28,102 nucleotides of DNA from a virus. Below are positions 6,099-24,700 of this stretch, piece by piece. The stretch covers positions 1 through 28,102 of IMG/VR virus record IMGVR_UViG_3300046355_000222. One strand, given 5' to 3'. The notes under the pieces were generated by a model. That model worked only from the letters and a program-made list of their open reading frames with translations. It did not search any database and had not been told where the DNA came from. Within the stretch, counting starts at the first letter, position 1. Every line of letters begins with the position of its first letter. Made by a program: the position numbers and the translations under genes.

Positions 6099-6585
6099 GA
6101 GACAACCCCTCCAACGCCAACAAATACTCAGGCGAAACACCCAAATTTAGAAGCCTGCCCGACAAACCATCAGGCAACCGCGACAACTTCCCAGACTCAT
6201 AATCACGCACAATAGAAGGCGACACCCGCAACAAAGACGCAAACGCCGTCACAGACCCCGCAAAATCCTTCCGCCACTGCGCAAACGACTGGTAATACTG
6301 ACCCAACACATAAGGCGGAACCAACAACAAATTCTCCGCAGCAGCCTTCAAAGGCGCAGACGGCTTAGCAAGCCACAACTCAATCTCCCCCACCAACACA
6401 TCCACAGCCACACCCAAATGCTGCTCAGCAGCCCCCAAAATCCTATCCGACGCACGCTTAGTACGCCCATCCTCCAACGCAGTCAACGCCGAACGCTGCA
6501 CACCAGCCAACTCAGCAAAACGAGACTGAGACAAACCAGCAGCAACACGAGCCAAACGAACAGGGTGGTCAGAAATACGAGCCAT
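6091..6585 (-). CDS. Double helix-turn-helix XRE-family regulator
   Basis: This encodes 164 residues. Residues 7-60 form a standard XRE/Cro-type helix-turn-helix (RLARVAAGLSQSRFAELAGV, then ALTALEDGR). A second, more diverged one lies at about 110-155 (FAGSVTAFASLLRVSPSIV, then RDYESGKLSRLP), so the protein may bind two half-sites alone. It is the first gene of the long minus-strand operon and probably regulates it. The start at 6585 was chosen because it opens the HTH domain and lies 6 nt after a TACAAT -10 box with no ribosome binding site, implying a leaderless transcript. The frame stays open upstream, but those residues look non-coding. Confidence 0.85.
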   Translation of the reverse strand: MARISDHPVRLARVAAGLSQSRFAELAGVQRSALTALEDGRTKRASDRILGAAEQHLGVAVDVLVGEIELWLAKPSAPLKAAAENLLLVPPYVLGQYYQSFAQWRKDFAGSVTAFASLLRVSPSIVRDYESGKLSRLPDGLSGRLLNLGVSPEYLLALEGLSRG

Positions 6586-9761: not shown

Positions 9762-9958
9762 TGGCTAGGTTTCGTGTGACTTACAATCTGGAAGAGTTTG
9801 GCTACCTGTATTTTGATTCGCCTGATGAAGATTCGGCTGATGAGTTGTTGCGTCAGGTTCAACAGGGGATTTTGGATTTCGAGGACTTACCTAATTTCTA
9901 TAAAAAGATTTCGGGTGGCTCTGAGAGTATCGAGAACGATTTGGAGGAGGCTATCTGA
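9761..9958 (+). CDS. Small acidic beta-alpha protein of unknown function
   Basis: This encodes 65 residues. It begins RFRVTYNLEEFGYLYFDSPDEDSADELLRQV, so a strand pair is followed by a helix and then an acidic end. The opening 'fxVTYxxEEFGY' is reminiscent of the 9433 product. The start overlaps the upstream stop. No known family. Confidence 0.6.
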   Translation: MARFRVTYNLEEFGYLYFDSPDEDSADELLRQVQQGILDFEDLPNFYKKISGGSESIENDLEEAI

Positions 9959-10119
9959 TGGTTTGTCCTTTGTGTGATGTTCGTGATGTTTCTGTTGGCG
10001 TGGGTGGTGATGTTTGGTGTCGTTTGTGTGGTGAGCCTGAGTTTGTTTTTGTCGTGGGTTCGGGTAGAAATGCGCCTGTGGATAACTCTGTGGATAAACC
10101 TGTGGATAACTTTGTTTAG
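9958..10119 (+). CDS. Tiny zinc-ribbon protein whose 3' end encodes three DnaA boxes
   Basis: This encodes 53 residues. CPLC (3-6) and CRLC (21-24) form a likely zinc ribbon. The end of the protein reads PVDNSVDKPVDNFV, because the DNA there is three TGTGGATAA boxes at 12-bp spacing read in one frame. The start overlaps the stop of the gene before (TGATG). The protein may be real, with its tail dictated by the DNA sites, or the coding frame may extend passively through an origin element. It is the last gene of the small-gene cluster. Confidence 0.5.
   Translation: MVCPLCDVRDVSVGVGGDVWCRLCGEPEFVFVVGSGRNAPVDNSVDKPVDNFV
10077..10109 (+). repeat. Three perfect DnaA boxes, candidate replication origin
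   Basis: TGTGGATAA, the exact complement of the consensus DnaA box TTATCCACA, occurs at 10077-10085, 10089-10097 and 10101-10109. All three point the same way at a 12-bp period. They are followed by an A/T-rich, palindrome-rich gene-free segment (10120-10373). Host DnaA binding and opening of the DNA nearby is a reasonable reading. No other copy of the box was noticed in the window. Confidence 0.65.
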
Positions 10120-10141
10120 TCGGTTTCCTATATTGATACCT

Positions 10142-10230
10142 ACTCATTCTTCATCTACTCTTGAGTAAGTTAAGAATGAGTAAGTAGGTTCTATATATAG
10201 CGACTTCAGATTTAACACTTTGTAGATGAA
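10142..10230. repeat. Nested inverted repeats next to the DnaA boxes
   Basis: ACTCATTCTT (10142-10151) and AAGAATGAGT (10172-10181) form a perfect 10-bp inverted repeat. Inside its loop sits TACTC-TT-GAGTA (10156-10167). TTCATCTAC (10150-10158) is also repeated inverted as GTAGATGAA (10222-10230). An A/T-rich TATATATA lies between. The segment can fold in alternative ways, and it carries two AGTAAGT motifs shared with 8461-8484. It resembles an origin or a complex regulatory region. Confidence 0.6.
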
Positions 10231-10274
10231 ATAAAGGGGAAAAGGGGGTGTCTTTTTTCCCAATTGGTAACATT

Positions 10275-10303
10275 TTGATAAATACGGTACAAATCTCTAT
10301 GAT
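10275..10303 (+). promoter_or_regulatory. Strong sigma70-type promoter for the 10374 gene
   Basis: TTGATA (10275-10280), a 17-nt spacer and TATGAT (10298-10303) match the vegetative promoter consensus closely. Transcription would start near 10310, leaving a leader of about 64 nt that contains the hairpin at 10332. Confidence 0.8.
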
Positions 10304-10331
10304 TAGTAGGTGAGTACTGCTAAACTACTAT

Positions 10332-10355
10332 CCTAGTGAGAGACACTAGGTTTTT
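10332..10355 (+). terminator. Leader hairpin with T-run, possible attenuator
   Basis: CCTAGTG-AGAGA-CACTAGG is a perfect 7-bp stem followed directly by TTTTT. It has the form of an intrinsic terminator but lies between the 10275 promoter and the 10374 start codon. It could attenuate that transcript, or act at the DNA level as an operator. Confidence 0.6.
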
Positions 10356-10373
10356 GGAAAGGATACAAGTTTT

Positions 10374-10979
10374 ATGGCTATTTTTGACCCTGTATACGGC
10401 GAGTTGATGACCGCTAAAGAGGTGTGTGAGACGACTGGTTTGACTATGAATCAGTTGCGTAATTGGCGGTTGCCATCTCGTTTGGACAAAGCCCCGTTTG
10501 GTTTTGTGAGTATTGGTGTTGCCCCGTATTACCGCAAGGCTTCTGTTTCGTTGTGGTTGGATAAGAACGCGGGTAGCAATGTTCGGTATACGCCTGCTGG
10601 GACTGATTTGGATGTTCCTGTTGCTGAGGGTTTTGAGGGTGATGTTGAGCGTATCAATGCTTTGAAGCGTGTTGCGGTGATTACTCCTGAGAATGTGAAG
10701 TCTTGGCAGGATTACTTGTTTGGTGTTGACCAGCAGAGGACTATGGCTTCTTCTAATGTTGTGAAGAATCGTTTCTTGACTGAGTTGTTGGGTTATGAGG
10801 TTGGTTTTAGTAATAGTGTTTCGGCTGAGCAGAGGTTTAGTGAGCCTGTTTGGTTTGAGGCGATGGTTAAGGCTTTGCGTCTTCAGGTGAATGAGATGTA
10901 TTCGTTGGGGTTGTCTGAGCAGGATGTTTTGGATGTTCCTGTTGGGCAAGTGCCACCGTTGAAGGAAACTAAGAAGTAG
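10374..10979 (+). CDS. DNA-binding protein with MerR/excisionase-like N-terminus
   Basis: This encodes 201 residues. Residues 12-60 (LMTAKEVCETTGLTMNQLRNWR, then a wing and YYRKASVSLWLDKN) look like the winged HTH of excisionase/AlpA/MerR-type proteins. This part usually reads 'ta.eva...gvs...l..W'. The rest (about 85-190) is helical with no known motif. The gene has its own strong promoter, a leader hairpin and an AAAGGA site, and lies directly after the candidate origin. It could be an origin-binding or early regulatory protein; this is inference from position. Confidence 0.7.
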   Translation: MAIFDPVYGELMTAKEVCETTGLTMNQLRNWRLPSRLDKAPFGFVSIGVAPYYRKASVSLWLDKNAGSNVRYTPAGTDLDVPVAEGFEGDVERINALKRVAVITPENVKSWQDYLFGVDQQRTMASSNVVKNRFLTELLGYEVGFSNSVSAEQRFSEPVWFEAMVKALRLQVNEMYSLGLSEQDVLDVPVGQVPPLKETKK

Positions 10980-15402: not shown

Positions 15403-15577
15403 AGATGATGAGGAGCGGATGAACTTGACGTTCATTCGTTTGAGTGAGGCGTTACAGCGTTCGCGTATGATGCATGAGGCTGTAGCAAATTCGGCAGGTA
15501 AGTTGCTTGTTGAGCAGGTTGAGAAGTTCTTGGAGGAACAAAATGGATTACACGATGACGGGCAATCAGAGCGTTGA
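15395..15577 (+). CDS. Small helical protein of unknown function
   Basis: This encodes 60 residues from the ATG at 15395. It is mainly helical (EERMNLTFIRLSEALQRSRMMHEAVANSAGKLLVEQVEKFLEEQ). It overlaps the gene before it by 8 bases and the WhiB gene by 35 bases in another frame, so translation of all three may be linked. It resembles its neighbour at 15223 in size and composition. Function unknown. Confidence 0.58.
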   Translation: MDKDDEERMNLTFIRLSEALQRSRMMHEAVANSAGKLLVEQVEKFLEEQNGLHDDGQSER

Positions 15578-15905
15578 TGCTGCCCTTTTAGCAGATTTTA
15601 TTTACGCTGAACATGGCGGTATTGTGCCGTGTCAGCAAGCACCTGACCTTTATTTCCCTGAGAAGTCTGGGACGCAAATGTCGCGTGTTGGTGGGTATGA
15701 TGATTTGACTCAGGCACAGTTGGCTAAGAAGAACTGTATTCAGGAGTGCCCTGTGATGATGGAGTGTCGCATGTATGCGTTGTTCCACAACGAGTCGGAT
15801 GGTATTTGGGGTGGTATGACTGCGAATGAGCGTAAGATTTGGCGTAAAGCAAATGGTAAAGTTCGTAGCCAGTCCCGTAAAGGTATCCCGAACAAGAAGT
15901 ATTGA
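15543..15905 (+). CDS. WhiB-family Fe-S transcriptional regulator
   Basis: This encodes 120 residues from the ATG at 15543, which has a GGAGGA site 5 nt upstream. Four cysteines at 30, 65, 69 and 75 give C-x34-C-x3-C-x5-C, the WhiB [4Fe-4S] ligand set. C30 lies in PCQQAPDLYFPE, and GIWGGMTANER at 87-97 is the WhiB turn that contacts the host sigma factor. The tail is Lys/Arg-rich and may touch DNA. WhiB proteins are confined to Actinobacteria and their phages and change transcription through the primary sigma factor. This is the strongest host marker in the window. It probably redirects host or phage transcription. Confidence 0.95.
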   Translation: MDYTMTGNQSVDAALLADFIYAEHGGIVPCQQAPDLYFPEKSGTQMSRVGGYDDLTQAQLAKKNCIQECPVMMECRMYALFHNESDGIWGGMTANERKIWRKANGKVRSQSRKGIPNKKY

Positions 15906-17457: not shown

Positions 17458-19968
17458 ATGGCTCTGACCAAGCCCTTCCAAGAACTACTTGAACGCCTAG
17501 GGCGTGACGCTGAGGATTCTCTCGCTGTCTGCTACCAGTCCGCCACACAGGGTTTCCGTGTAAAGAACACAACTGTTAAGCACGCCGACCTTGTTGTTGA
17601 AACTTTGACTGAGATGGGTGCGAATGTTTGGTACGAAATCAACCCGTCAACCGCTGTTGGGCGTGCGAAGGCTGAAGACATCACTCGCCTGTCCGCTGTT
17701 TGGATTGACATCGACTACAAAGATACAGGTATCCAAAGTGAAGAGAACGCTCACGAACTTGTGGAACTCATTGCGAATCTTATTGGTGTGCAACCTGCTG
17801 CGGTTGTACATTCTGGGCATGGGTTACAGCCTTACTGGGCGATTGACCCCGAAGAATCATTTACGCAGGAGCAGGCTAGTGGCATTTTGGGTCGCTGGGG
17901 TGCGTTCGTGCGATGGGTGGCTGCTTCCCAAGGCGGTCAACTTGACTCAGTTTTCGACCTCCCGCGCATCTTCCGTGCGCCTGGGGGGACTAATTTTAAA
18001 GACTTGGCTAATCCGATACAGGTACGTGTAGATTTCGCTGACTCTTGGCGACCACTATCCCTTGACGAGTTAGATGACCTGCTCATCACGCACGGTTTCG
18101 TGTCGGTGCAAACGTCACCAGACTTCGAACTGGTGTCTGGTTCTGCTGACTGGCAGTACGCAGAGTATGACTGCCAGTGGGCTGGCAACCTTGTCGCCTC
18201 AGTTCAACCAACTAACGGTGTACCTAAGTCACGTCACGGTTGGTTGCTTCAGCAACTCATCAAAATTAACGCCGCTCACCGCAACGGGTGCATCACCGAA
18301 GACACTGCGAAGCGTGTCATCGTGTTGTTGGATAACCAGTTCCGTGAGTTCTTGAAAGTTTCACCTTCGCGTGAAATCAATCAGGGCGAGTTGCAGTCCG
18401 CTAACCGTTGGGCTATTGCCCGTGTTGAAACGTTCGACGCTAAGAAGTTGAGCGACGAGTTGCGTGGACACGACCACAAAAATTTGATTGAGGGCGCTGT
18501 AGAAATTGTAGAGTCCACTTCGCCCTACAAACAGGACTACTCTAACGAGGAACTGTTCGACATCTACTACAAGTCTTACCTGAACTACGGCACAACAGAT
18601 GCAGCGAACGCAACCCGCATGATTCACTTCATGAAGGGCAAGTACCGTTACGTCACCGATGTGGGCTGGTATTACTGGGACGGTACACGCTACGTCCAAG
18701 ACAAAGAGAAGTCCATCATGCAAGAAATGATTGACTCCGTACAGTTCTTCCACGGCACAGACCTTGGACCAGCCATTAACAAATGGATACTTCAATCACA
18801 AAATAAAGATAGGATTCAAAATGCAATCAGCATTGCTGGGACCGATAGCGAAGTCCTTGTTCGCGCAATCGAGTTGGACGCGGAGGCAAATAATCTCTGC
18901 ACTCCTGACGGGATTGTCAATCTCCGAACGGGTGAGATTCGCCCAGCACTTAAGGGTGTTGACCTCAATACTAGGCAGACGTCTGTCAGTCCTAGAACTA
19001 TTGAAACTCCGTTATGGTCTAACTTCCTCAAAGAAGTCATTGAGGATGAGGAGCGCATCGCGTATGTCCAAGAACTCTTTGGTGCTTCGCTATTCGGTGA
19101 TTCCCGATTCCATGTACTACCAGTATTTGTTGGAACGGGAGCGAACGGTAAATCAACTATTATCGACGTCATTGCGGGGATTCTAAATGACTACGCCGCA
19201 ACCATGCCCGAAAACTTTCTACTTGACACTACAGGCAACGCACACCCAACTGACATTGCAAGACTTAGAGGAGTTCGTCTTGCCGTGGCTTCAGAAACAA
19301 GGCCTGATGGTAAGTTCAATGAGAGCCGAGTAAAGATGTTGACAGGTGGCGACACCTTGTCAGCCCGTTTCATGGGGCAAAACTTCTTCGACTTCAAACC
19401 AACACACACCCTGTTCATGGCAGTAAACCACTTGCCTGAAGTTAAGTCTGGTGGTGACGGTTTCTGGCGTCGCCTCCGCAAGATTGACTTCCGTAAAACA
19501 ATCCCTGCGGATAAGCGTAAAGAGAACCTTGCCCAACTGCTCGTCGAGCAGGAAGGTGCAGGCATCCTGCAGTGGATGATTGACGGTGCGGTTCGTGTCA
19601 CCAACCAAGGGTTCAGCGAACCCGAGTCGGTCAAGATGGCTACACAGTCTTACCGTCACGAAGAAGACCACATTGCGAAATTCATCAACGAACGTACCAT
19701 CCTCGCCGACACTGCGTCAGTCACTAAGACTTCGCTGTTCAACGCTTACCGTGAATGGTGTGCCGAGAACGGCGAGAAGCCTGTGACACAGAACAACTTG
19801 ACTCGTGAAGTTAAGGCACGCCTAGGCGTCTCTGAGAGCGACTCTGTGGGCTTCAAAATGTTTGTTGGTGTAGACCTGCTAAAGATTGGTTCAAACAACA
19901 ACCAGTCGTCTGTGAAGGACATTCTGGGCGACTACCTTGAGGACAAAGATGATTACTGGAATCGATGA
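17458..19968 (+). CDS. Primase-helicase: AEP-type primase fused to D5/P4-like SF3 helicase
   Basis: This encodes 836 residues from the ATG at 17458, after an AAAGGAT site. The N-terminal part is an archaeo-eukaryotic-type primase: WIDIDYKD at 82-89 supplies the metal-binding DxD, and HSGHGLQPYW at 118-127 is the nucleotide-binding His motif. The middle is helical linker. The C-terminal part is a superfamily 3 helicase with Walker A GTGANGKST (559-567), followed by the P4/D5-type TLSARFMGQNFFDFKPTHTLFMAVNHLP. A winged-helix tail follows. It opens the DNA at the origin and primes synthesis, so phage replication likely depends on it. No separate DNA polymerase gene was seen in the window. Confidence 0.93.
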   Translation: MALTKPFQELLERLGRDAEDSLAVCYQSATQGFRVKNTTVKHADLVVETLTEMGANVWYEINPSTAVGRAKAEDITRLSAVWIDIDYKDTGIQSEENAHELVELIANLIGVQPAAVVHSGHGLQPYWAIDPEESFTQEQASGILGRWGAFVRWVAASQGGQLDSVFDLPRIFRAPGGTNFKDLANPIQVRVDFADSWRPLSLDELDDLLITHGFVSVQTSPDFELVSGSADWQYAEYDCQWAGNLVASVQPTNGVPKSRHGWLLQQLIKINAAHRNGCITEDTAKRVIVLLDNQFREFLKVSPSREINQGELQSANRWAIARVETFDAKKLSDELRGHDHKNLIEGAVEIVESTSPYKQDYSNEELFDIYYKSYLNYGTTDAANATRMIHFMKGKYRYVTDVGWYYWDGTRYVQDKEKSIMQEMIDSVQFFHGTDLGPAINKWILQSQNKDRIQNAISIAGTDSEVLVRAIELDAEANNLCTPDGIVNLRTGEIRPALKGVDLNTRQTSVSPRTIETPLWSNFLKEVIEDEERIAYVQELFGASLFGDSRFHVLPVFVGTGANGKSTIIDVIAGILNDYAATMPENFLLDTTGNAHPTDIARLRGVRLAVASETRPDGKFNESRVKMLTGGDTLSARFMGQNFFDFKPTHTLFMAVNHLPEVKSGGDGFWRRLRKIDFRKTIPADKRKENLAQLLVEQEGAGILQWMIDGAVRVTNQGFSEPESVKMATQSYRHEEDHIAKFINERTILADTASVTKTSLFNAYREWCAENGEKPVTQNNLTREVKARLGVSESDSVGFKMFVGVDLLKIGSNNNQSSVKDILGDYLEDKDDYWNR

Positions 19969-21968: not shown

Positions 21969-22094
21969 TTACTTTTTGTCAGTGATTTCTTGACCGCAAG
22001 CACCACAAATGCAAGTGTCTGCTGGGTCTTCGAACGGGATGCTTATTTCAGCGTTCTCACAGTTTGGGGTGTGGCATGTTAGTTGAATTATCAT
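21969..22094 (-). CDS. Tiny zinc-ribbon protein
   Basis: This encodes 41 residues from the ATG at 22094. Cysteines lie in CHTPNC (7-12) and CICGAC (about 29-34), a zinc-ribbon pattern. Its start overlaps the stop of the tail-fibre gene (TAATG). A longer frame from 22178 would run inside the fibre gene and was rejected. Partner unknown. Confidence 0.65.
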   Translation of the reverse strand: MIIQLTCHTPNCENAEISIPFEDPADTCICGACGQEITDKK

Positions 22095-24700
22095 TATCCG
22101 CCTGCTGCTCCTGATGTCATTTGAATTGCTTGGTAGTAACCCGAACGGGACACAGCTCCCGCAGAGCCACCCGCCCAAGCGTAAATGGTGAACCCTGTAG
22201 TTGATACGCTGGCAATAGTTGCCGACGTGACCGATGTGCTTGAAGCCATTGTCACGGTGACGATTGGGGCTTGAGTGAAACGGCTTGCAGGGAACGTAAC
22301 AGATGCGTTACCTGTGAACGCTGTGATGGTGTTTGCTGCCATGCGGTACGGGATACCTGTTGAGCCTGGTTCGGGGCGTGCAGCCAACGCCGTTTCCAAA
22401 CCAACAATTTGCGACTGAGCAAGTGTCAGGACGTCTGAACCGCCAGTGCCGTGCGACGATGCGTGAGCCGTCGGTGTGCGGGCGTTGCTCAGGCGTGAGT
22501 CGGTAGTGATTACGGCTGTGCCTGTGACTTGCGACGGGGCGATGGCAGAAGAACTTGTTAAGTAGGTTGAAGAATCTACCGACCCATCTGCCTTGAGGAA
22601 TTGGCTAGATGTTCCGCCAGTTTTTATGAAGGATGCGCCAGTAATGTTTCCAGCAGAATCTACCTTCGCTAGTACTGCCTGTGTAGAATCTTGCCATTGT
22701 GTTAGGTCAGCAGTTTGAGAAGCCGAACCGCGAATCGTTGAACCGATTTGAGTGGTAGAAGCAGTCTGTATGTCTAGTCGCCCAGCACCAGCAGCGCCAC
22801 CTGCAACCAATCGTCCAGACTGACTGATGAGTGAGCCACCTGCTGATACGTTGGCAAGAACAGTTCCGCTAGAGTTCTGCCATTCTGTCAAACTAGCAGT
22901 TTGAGACGCAGCGCCACGAACCCTAAGTGGTAGCGTCGATGCTGACCCCGCGTTGAAAATTCCGTAAGCGTTAGTGTTTATTCCGCCAAATGAATCTATA
23001 AATGCAGTTGCCACACCTGAACTGTTTTGCCATTCCTGCAAGTTAGCAGTCTGAGAAACAGCACCCCGAAGCACCAAAGGAATCTGCGAAGCACCAAAAG
23101 CATAAGAAGTAATGTTACCCAAAGCAGTCGAACCACCAACAGATAAAAACCCATTCTTATCAACAACACTTCGATAAGACCCGTTTAATGACCAAACCTG
23201 CATATGGTTAGTTGGTGACGCTGGCGTATTTATTTGAAGTCCGATAGTGCCAACTGCGCCAGTATTGATAACCTGCGCACCAGTAAAAGTGTTCCCACCA
23301 GCCAAGTTAGCCTTAGCACCCAAATCAGATACAAGGTTCGTAACCTGCGATTGAGCAATAGCAAGAGTTGACTGGGCGGTGTTCACCCAAGCTGAACCGT
23401 TAAACTTCAGTAAGTCGCCTGACGCTGCAGACCCTGTGAACACGTCGTGCAGTTCGTTCAGTTCGTAACCGTTCTGCACCTTAACAAGGATTTCACCATT
23501 AGTGGCATGCTTGCGTGTAACGACACCTAGGTAAACTGAGTGCGCTGGTTTTGCTGGAGGTGCACCGTACACGCGCCCACCTGCCGTACCTGACAACCAA
23601 ACGCTGTCGCCTGCAGCGGTTGCGCCTGATGTGTCAATGCCTGTTAGCAGACCGTTTGTGACAATGTAACCTAAACCGTTTACGGCTAGGTCTTGGTAAA
23701 GCAAACCTAAAGTTTTTGATGACGTTGTTTCTGTGTCTGCGTCGGCTAGGCTGACAAGAACGTTGTCGCCGTTTGCGCCAGAAATGTATACCGCTTGACC
23801 TTTTGTTACCGAACCACCCGTGTCGTTCTTCACGTAATCAAGCAGCGGGGTTTCTAGTTTTGCGTTTGCGATAGCGTCGAACGATAGTGTGGATGTTCCG
23901 CTGTCCCAGACAATAGGTGACGTTGCGGTGATGGTTGGTGGTGGGGTATCAACCCATTCGGTGTCGTAGTCGGTTGCGGAGTTTTTTGCTAGGATTTGTC
24001 CAGTTGTGCCGCCAGCGGCGACGCCAGGTCCAGCGGGTCCTGTTGGTCCAGTGGGACCAGTTGCGCCTGTGGGTCCAGTCGGTCCAGCGGGTCCAGTCGC
24101 ACCAGTCGGACCAGTCGCACCATCTAAACCATCTGCGCCGTCAGCCCCAGCGGGACCAGTTGGCCCTGTTGGACCCGTGGCACCTGTAGCACCCGTTGCG
24201 CCCGCTGGTCCAGTCGCACCCGCTGGTCCAGTCGCACCTGTTGGTCCAGTAGGTCCAATAAGCGAGTCAAGCCACTCAGCCTCAGTTCCGACAAACCCGT
24301 TTGCGACGGCAACCTCGTAAGCGGACGCACCATCGGCACCATCCGCCCCGTCTGCACCATCAGTTCCGTTAGTTCCATTGGTTCCGTTAGTTCCAGCAGC
24401 ACCCGTTGCGCCCGTCGCACCAGTGGCACCCGTGGCACCATCCGCACCGTCAGCGCCTACGAGGGATGCGAGCCAAGCAGACTCGCTGCCAGAGAACCCA
24501 TTAGCAACAGCGATGTCATACGCCGAGTCGCCCGCTGCGCCCTGCGTAAAGTAAGGGAGACTCACCCAGTTAGTTTCGCCATCACCAACCTTCACCTTCA
24601 TAGTGTCAGTCTCTACAGCAAACTCACGCTCAGCAAGAATCGGGTTGACGCTAGTCCAAGTTGCGGCGAGGTCGCCGCGCAACTGAATACGAATAGCCAT
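22094..24700 (-). CDS. Long tail fibre with collagen-like stalk
   Basis: This encodes 868 residues. Residues 1-52 ([43 protein letters not shown]) resemble the phage Mtd-type N-terminal attachment domain. About 81-235 is a Gly-X-Y collagen-like stalk, interrupted by [18 protein letters not shown], which also occurs earlier as [18 protein letters not shown]. Three repeats of about 30 residues (RGxxSQTAxLxxWQ) lie at about 540-570, 593-625 and 652-685. The C-terminal 150 residues are beta-rich, probably the receptor-binding tip. It likely forms a trimer that binds the host surface. Its start overlaps the gene upstream (TAATG). Confidence 0.88.
24010..24455 (-). repeat. Collagen-type Gly-X-Y coding repeats
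   Basis: Dense 9-base and 18-base repeats (units such as GGTCCAGTC read on the plus strand) encode Gly-Pro-Thr, Gly-Ala-Thr and Gly-Asp-Ala triplets in two blocks. Such repeats expand and shrink easily, so fibre length may vary between isolates. They look array-like but are coding repeats. Confidence 0.8.

Follow-up and report, generated by a model that had tools for sequence, protein, structure and literature searches.

A tandem DnaA-box array kept as DNA in a phage family and most likely forming part of a replication origin

The 28.1-kb viral record that we analysed as a whole (28,102 nucleotides, the window) carries an array of three DnaA boxes that we read as a platform for loading DnaA and, most likely, as a component of the phage replication origin. 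The exact sequence TGTGGATAA occurs on the + strand at 10077–10085 (box 1, reading TTATCCACA on the − strand and kept in relatives), 3 bp further on at 10089–10097 (box 2) and again 3 bp further on at 10101–10109 (box 3), which confirms the triple box, in one orientation and at one-turn spacing, of the preliminary description. No further exact copy was found on either strand of the window. From the dinucleotide composition of the window, about 0.2 exact boxes would be expected, and about 2.6e-12 exact triples with 3-nt gaps. At least two boxes at cooperative spacing and orientation are taken as the mark of an origin, and the window holds three exact ones in a single orientation. Judging from the sequence, host DnaA would very probably bind the array, and on balance we favour the view that the region serves as the phage replication origin.

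We compared the window with ten viral contigs that encode homologues of the 201-aa protein downstream of the array (L346–L355, L355 being cut short). Two exact boxes at 12-bp spacing are present in seven of the ten (L346, L348, L349, L350, L352, L353 and L354), L351 has a single exact box, and L347 and L355 have none. Wherever boxes are retained, they lie 263–310 bp upstream of the gene for the 201-aa protein. In six of the eight relatives compared, the array is the longest exact DNA match to positions 9–11 kb of the window (23–26 nt, the next-longest matches being 11–15 nt, or 23 nt in L350), and in those six it exceeds every match in the neighbouring coding genes. In L346, the array forms part of the longest exact match, and a 36-nt identity with the window covers box 3 plus the sequence after it.

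In the window, the boxes lie in frame within a 53-aa zinc-ribbon-like gene (9958–10119, + strand), whose product has two CxxC motifs and the C-terminal end PVDNSVDKPVDNFV, with the tail PVDNSVDKPVDN written by the boxes; a Pfam search with this protein returned nothing. In the window and in L346, the zinc-ribbon gene continues through the boxes; it stops 2 bp ahead of box 1 in L348, L350, L351 and L352, and in L353 and L354 a TAA within box 1 is its stop codon. In L349, an apparent stop 2 bp before box 1 was seen by eye, while the script chose another frame. One and the same array DNA thus stands in three distinct coding relations across the relatives. Since the coding relation varies and the array is the longest match in most relatives, the array is kept as DNA and the PVDN tail of the 53-aa protein is, on this sequence comparison, incidental. 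Hence, the boxes described earlier as lying inside a gene are indeed in frame in the window, but this location is incidental, as in most relatives the gene ends before the boxes or at a stop codon provided by them. The comparison of boxes with protein frame that had been proposed came out on the side of the boxes, which persist upstream of the 201-aa gene while the frame varies. By sequence comparison, then, the boxes are under selection at the DNA level, conserved at a fixed place as DNA rather than as protein. An extra inverted DnaA box (TTATCCACA) occurs some 20 bp ahead of box 1 in four relatives (L349–L352). It falls within the tail end of the zinc-ribbon gene, is read as SYPQ and gives a divergent box beside a tandem pair, except in L351, where a single forward box accompanies it.

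The 254-bp intergenic stretch that follows the zinc-ribbon gene (10120–10373) is a candidate for the part of the origin that unwinds and bears repeats. It has about 66% AT against 51% for the window, and the 264 bp after box 3 likewise have 66%, a modest excess over the window value; in relatives that retain boxes, 255–288 bp with 61–70% AT separate the boxes from the downstream gene. The AT-rich segment with inverted repeats reported earlier is therefore borne out, since the stretch contains a 24-nt imperfect dyad (10137–10186, with arms at 10137–10160 and 10163–10186) as well as smaller inverted repeats. The dyad, which bears TGAGTA/TACTCA motifs, is also present in L346 and L347, partly in L348–L352 and not in L353–L355. 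Across eleven sequences, the window included, the intergenic stretch holds 27 TGAGTA/TACTCA motifs where about 2 would be expected; eight of the sequences account for all 27, and these repeats are possibly binding sites of a phage protein. Among the arrays as a group, the AT profile showed no significant asymmetry between the left and right sides.

A sigma-70-like promoter match (TTGATA-17-TATGAT, 10275–10303, + strand) lies about 165 bp past the last box, upstream of the gene for the 201-aa protein; with one match against 0.8 expected, it is weak alone because the count is no higher than chance. The downstream gene itself (10374–10979, + strand) is conserved and encodes a protein with a predicted N-terminal winged helix of the MerR/BldC/Xis type. 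The predicted structure has a mean pLDDT of 75 and its best matches, over this short domain, are to BldC, MerR and Xis proteins, all with E above 0.1, so that the winged helix is a hint at the fold class only. Pfam and PHROGs gave nothing for this protein, including no initiator-family match, and homologues were not found among named phages. Going by the structure prediction, it is possibly an origin- or operator-binding protein.

The rest of the window offers some information on the phage and its host. A near-identity search against named phages gave no match. The window encodes a D5-type primase-helicase (17458–19968, + strand), the candidate replicative helicase of the phage, with its best matches in mycobacteriophages at about 35% identity, and an early-region WhiB-like transcription factor (15507–15905, + strand); together, these genes suggest an actinobacterial host. 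On the − strand, an 868-aa protein with long collagen-like G-x-y stretches (22094–24700) is probably a tail fibre. The closest relative, G001, has a primase-helicase 92% identical to that of the window and is probably a complete circular assembly, since its 41,919 bases include a 127-base terminal repeat; its position 40.1 kb corresponds to 10.1 kb of the window. A second DnaA-box pair is present in G001 (18866–18886, L356), in a noncoding stretch immediately ahead of the capsid gene and after a terminator-like hairpin, and is absent at that place in G002–G004.

The exact triple is found in at least 119 viral stretches, against none for a reversed control pattern. The view of the preliminary description that a phage using host DnaA from boxes overlapping a coding gene would be unusual is not supported as it stands, in that DnaA-box arrays are not rare in phages; the open-licence papers searched hold only scattered cases of phage DnaA sites. 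When the gap was left free (0–20 bp), viral start-to-start distances of 11 bp (106 cases) and 12 bp (68 cases) dominated, with few at 13–18 bp and a second peak at 21–23 bp, one helical turn further. In vivo, E. coli DnaA binds box pairs with a 2- or 3-bp gap, and its binding drops sharply when a single base is added to a 3-bp gap (PMC11317965); the viral spacing optimum matches this preference. Moreover, the spacing rule points to the DNA, because a distance of 11 bp breaks the reading frame, and 98 of 227 viral arrays lie at the margin of a called gene or outside any, compared to about 14% of random positions. Some individual hits deserve mention. An ANIRANIVDN-type repeat protein (L017, 1–594, − strand) yields a triple array through its coding repeats and is likely a false positive of the pattern scan. 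Four related contigs (L010, L020, L032 and L088) have an in-frame VDNPVDN array near the end of a membrane-like protein of about 320 aa, which PHROGs does not place among replication genes. One triple (L266, 2960–2992) comes from a contig that carries the label of a Woesearchaeota archaeon and is perhaps a virus or a contaminant; to our knowledge, these archaea are expected to lack DnaA.

When one genome per species was scanned, for 84,980 species of bacteria and archaea, the triple turned up in at least 117 stretches. Among the matches listed, dnaA or dnaN lies within 1.5 kb in 47 of 117 bacterial stretches, so the triple is often a feature of chromosomal origins, and Pfam assigned 24 of 77 neighbour proteins to the beta clamp and 5 to DnaA. 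That the viral hits are mis-binned chromosomal oriC was ruled out, as dnaA or dnaN homology is absent from all 224 viral loci. Of 15 viral genes that encode at least 150 aa and hold an array in frame, nine (L003, L016, L026, L058, L060, L068, L097, L206 and L078) match PHROG replication-initiation or O-like families, compared to none of 20 size-matched control genes from the same contigs. The probability of all nine falling in the array group by chance is about 7e-5 (hypergeometric sum), although the comparison is supportive rather than exact because the 15 genes were picked by length and frame and the gene calls were our own. The L078 gene (1314–2495, + strand) combines an O-like/DnaD-like initiator region with a C-terminal DnaA N-terminal domain (PF11638, E 7e-7) and holds a triple DnaA-box array within itself. 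The array of the window, in its 53-aa zinc-ribbon gene, is not located in an initiator gene, and for intergenic viral arrays the PHROG assignments of neighbouring genes were not clearly different from those of control genes.

We also looked at strand skew, which had been cited as changing near the boxes. The cumulative GC-skew minimum of the window is at 6557, 3.5 kb upstream of the boxes and near a change in gene direction, and in the circular relative G001 it is 4.1 kb from the boxes; the suggested GC-skew check thus places the minima away from the boxes. Third-codon-position skew in same-direction genes is about 0 at 6.75–9.0 kb, mixed (−0.12 to +0.56) at 9.1–10 kb and about −0.15 beyond 16.7 kb, while between 10.4 and 16.7 kb it is +0.3 to +0.9. 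The earlier observation therefore holds in so far as the skew flips near the boxes and the third-position skew rises from 10.4 kb, but not as regards the minimum, 3.5 kb away. A flip near, and not at, the boxes was seen in the window, G001, G005 and G006, while G003 and G004 have boxes without a skew switch. Across loci, bacterial arrays show a clear signed jump in skew (t about 4) and in-frame viral arrays a weak one (t about 2.5), but intergenic viral arrays, taken as a class, show none. Skew hence gives the origin reading weak support and, for intergenic arrays, counts partly against it.

Host DnaA would bind the three boxes cooperatively, in a single orientation, and bound DnaA would help to open the AT-rich segment 10120–10373. 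The TGAGTA repeats of that segment may be bound by the phage winged-helix protein (10374–10979), after which either the D5 primase-helicase of the phage or host DnaB would load. Each of these steps is inferred, from the binding of DnaA through the opening of the strands and the loading of a helicase to activity as an origin. The candidate origin proposed in the preliminary description keeps its standing on selection at the DNA level, DnaA-preferred spacing, an oriC-like arrangement, an AT-rich and repeat-bearing neighbour and the initiator-gene arrays of unrelated phages, while the parts of that proposal that relied on the in-gene location, on skew and on rarity do not stand. Several observations count against an origin. 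The 201-aa protein has no initiator-family match, L347 and L355 have no exact box, and the second box pair of G001 is lacking in G002–G004. In addition, TAG/CTA-type words, as expected of DnaA-trios, are not enriched within 60 nt of viral arrays, which is a further point against; in the window, at most two A-centred triplets were seen by eye on the side taken as canonical, and a BUS unwinding module would call for three or more trios beside the box pair.

The main rival, which we regard as rather unlikely, is a DnaA-responsive regulatory site, at which array-bound host DnaA would control transcription, either by ending the upstream early operon or by tuning the promoter of the winged-helix gene, the phage thereby sensing the replication state of its host. 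E. coli DnaA regulates genes through box pairs with 2- or 3-bp gaps (PMC11317965), the boxes lie between two transcription units with the promoter-like site downstream, the second pair of G001 stands between genes in the late region, ahead of the capsid gene, and the missing skew jump at intergenic arrays would fit such a role. However, the distance from the array to the promoter-like site is long for a simple operator, and the in-frame arrays of unrelated phages concentrate in replication-initiator genes. We find it improbable that the array is a trap, in which high-affinity boxes, in many copies on replicating phage DNA, would titrate host DnaA and stop chromosome initiation. Exact-consensus boxes at cooperative spacing and the high copy number expected during infection would suit a trap, and titration of E. 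coli DnaA on chromosomal sites has been reported (PMC12371093); yet the window has no more than three exact boxes, none of the relatives examined has more than five, and a trap would not need the fixed place upstream of one gene.

By far the least credible explanation is that a VDNS/VDKP tetrapeptide is selected in the protein and the boxes are its by-product. The in-frame VDN repeats of the window and L346 are what it predicts, and the L017 protein illustrates that arrays can arise in this way, but seven box-bearing relatives do not encode the peptide, and we reject a protein repeat on the frame-breaking 11-bp spacing that is commonest in viruses, the many viral arrays outside genes and the varied coding relations in relatives.

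Returning to the array as a DnaA-loading platform, what seems new is that this phage family has a fixed, coding-independent array and that the array recurs in unrelated phages, where it often lies within an initiator gene; no paper describing such fixed or recurrent phage arrays was found in the open-licence literature searched. Most textbook phages bring their own initiator. We tentatively suggest, as a possibility short of an expectation, that dsDNA phages have repeatedly and convergently acquired tandem arrays with 2- or 3-bp gaps as an origin module, placed beside or inside an initiator gene, and that many phages fire their origin through host DnaA. The signature is essentially free of chance matches and common to bacterial oriC and unrelated phages, which makes it a direct means of telling which phages rely on host DnaA and where they have their origins, uncultured metagenomic phages among them. 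It also carries a warning, as short in-frame peptide repeats in phage proteins (PVDN, SYPQ, LSTG) can reflect DNA sites rather than protein function.

Compared to known systems, the array has partial likenesses to several. In lambda, the repeats within gene O bind O, not DnaA; other phages in our set do carry in-frame DnaA-box arrays in O-like genes, which resembles the placement of lambda ori within O, whereas the array of the window is in a small zinc-ribbon gene and not in an initiator. Bacterial oriC with tandem boxes, including the BUS module of B. subtilis, has the same box, orientation and 2- or 3-bp gap, and the identical triple adjoins dnaA or dnaN in the 47 of 117 stretches noted above among the matches listed, but the window has neither gene nearby, three boxes only and DnaA-trios that are only candidates. 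The injection stop signal of the T5 family, phage DNA with DnaA boxes and inverted repeats that is tied to two-step DNA transfer (PMC13250531), shares these two elements, and T5-like phages are also among our matches; here, in contrast, the genome assembles as a circle of about 42 kb (in the relative G001) and the array is in the early-gene region. Iteron-plasmid origins (P1, F, RK2 oriV and pSC101) likewise have DnaA boxes in fixed orientation beside an AT-rich segment, and repeats that could bind a replicon-encoded protein (PMC4980987). Unlike these, the window has no recognised Rep initiator, its repeats are short and irregular, its origin is a candidate one and it has its own D5 primase-helicase. 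As a kind of system, and by analogy, the array nevertheless resembles the DnaA-assisted plasmid origins of P1, F and RK2.
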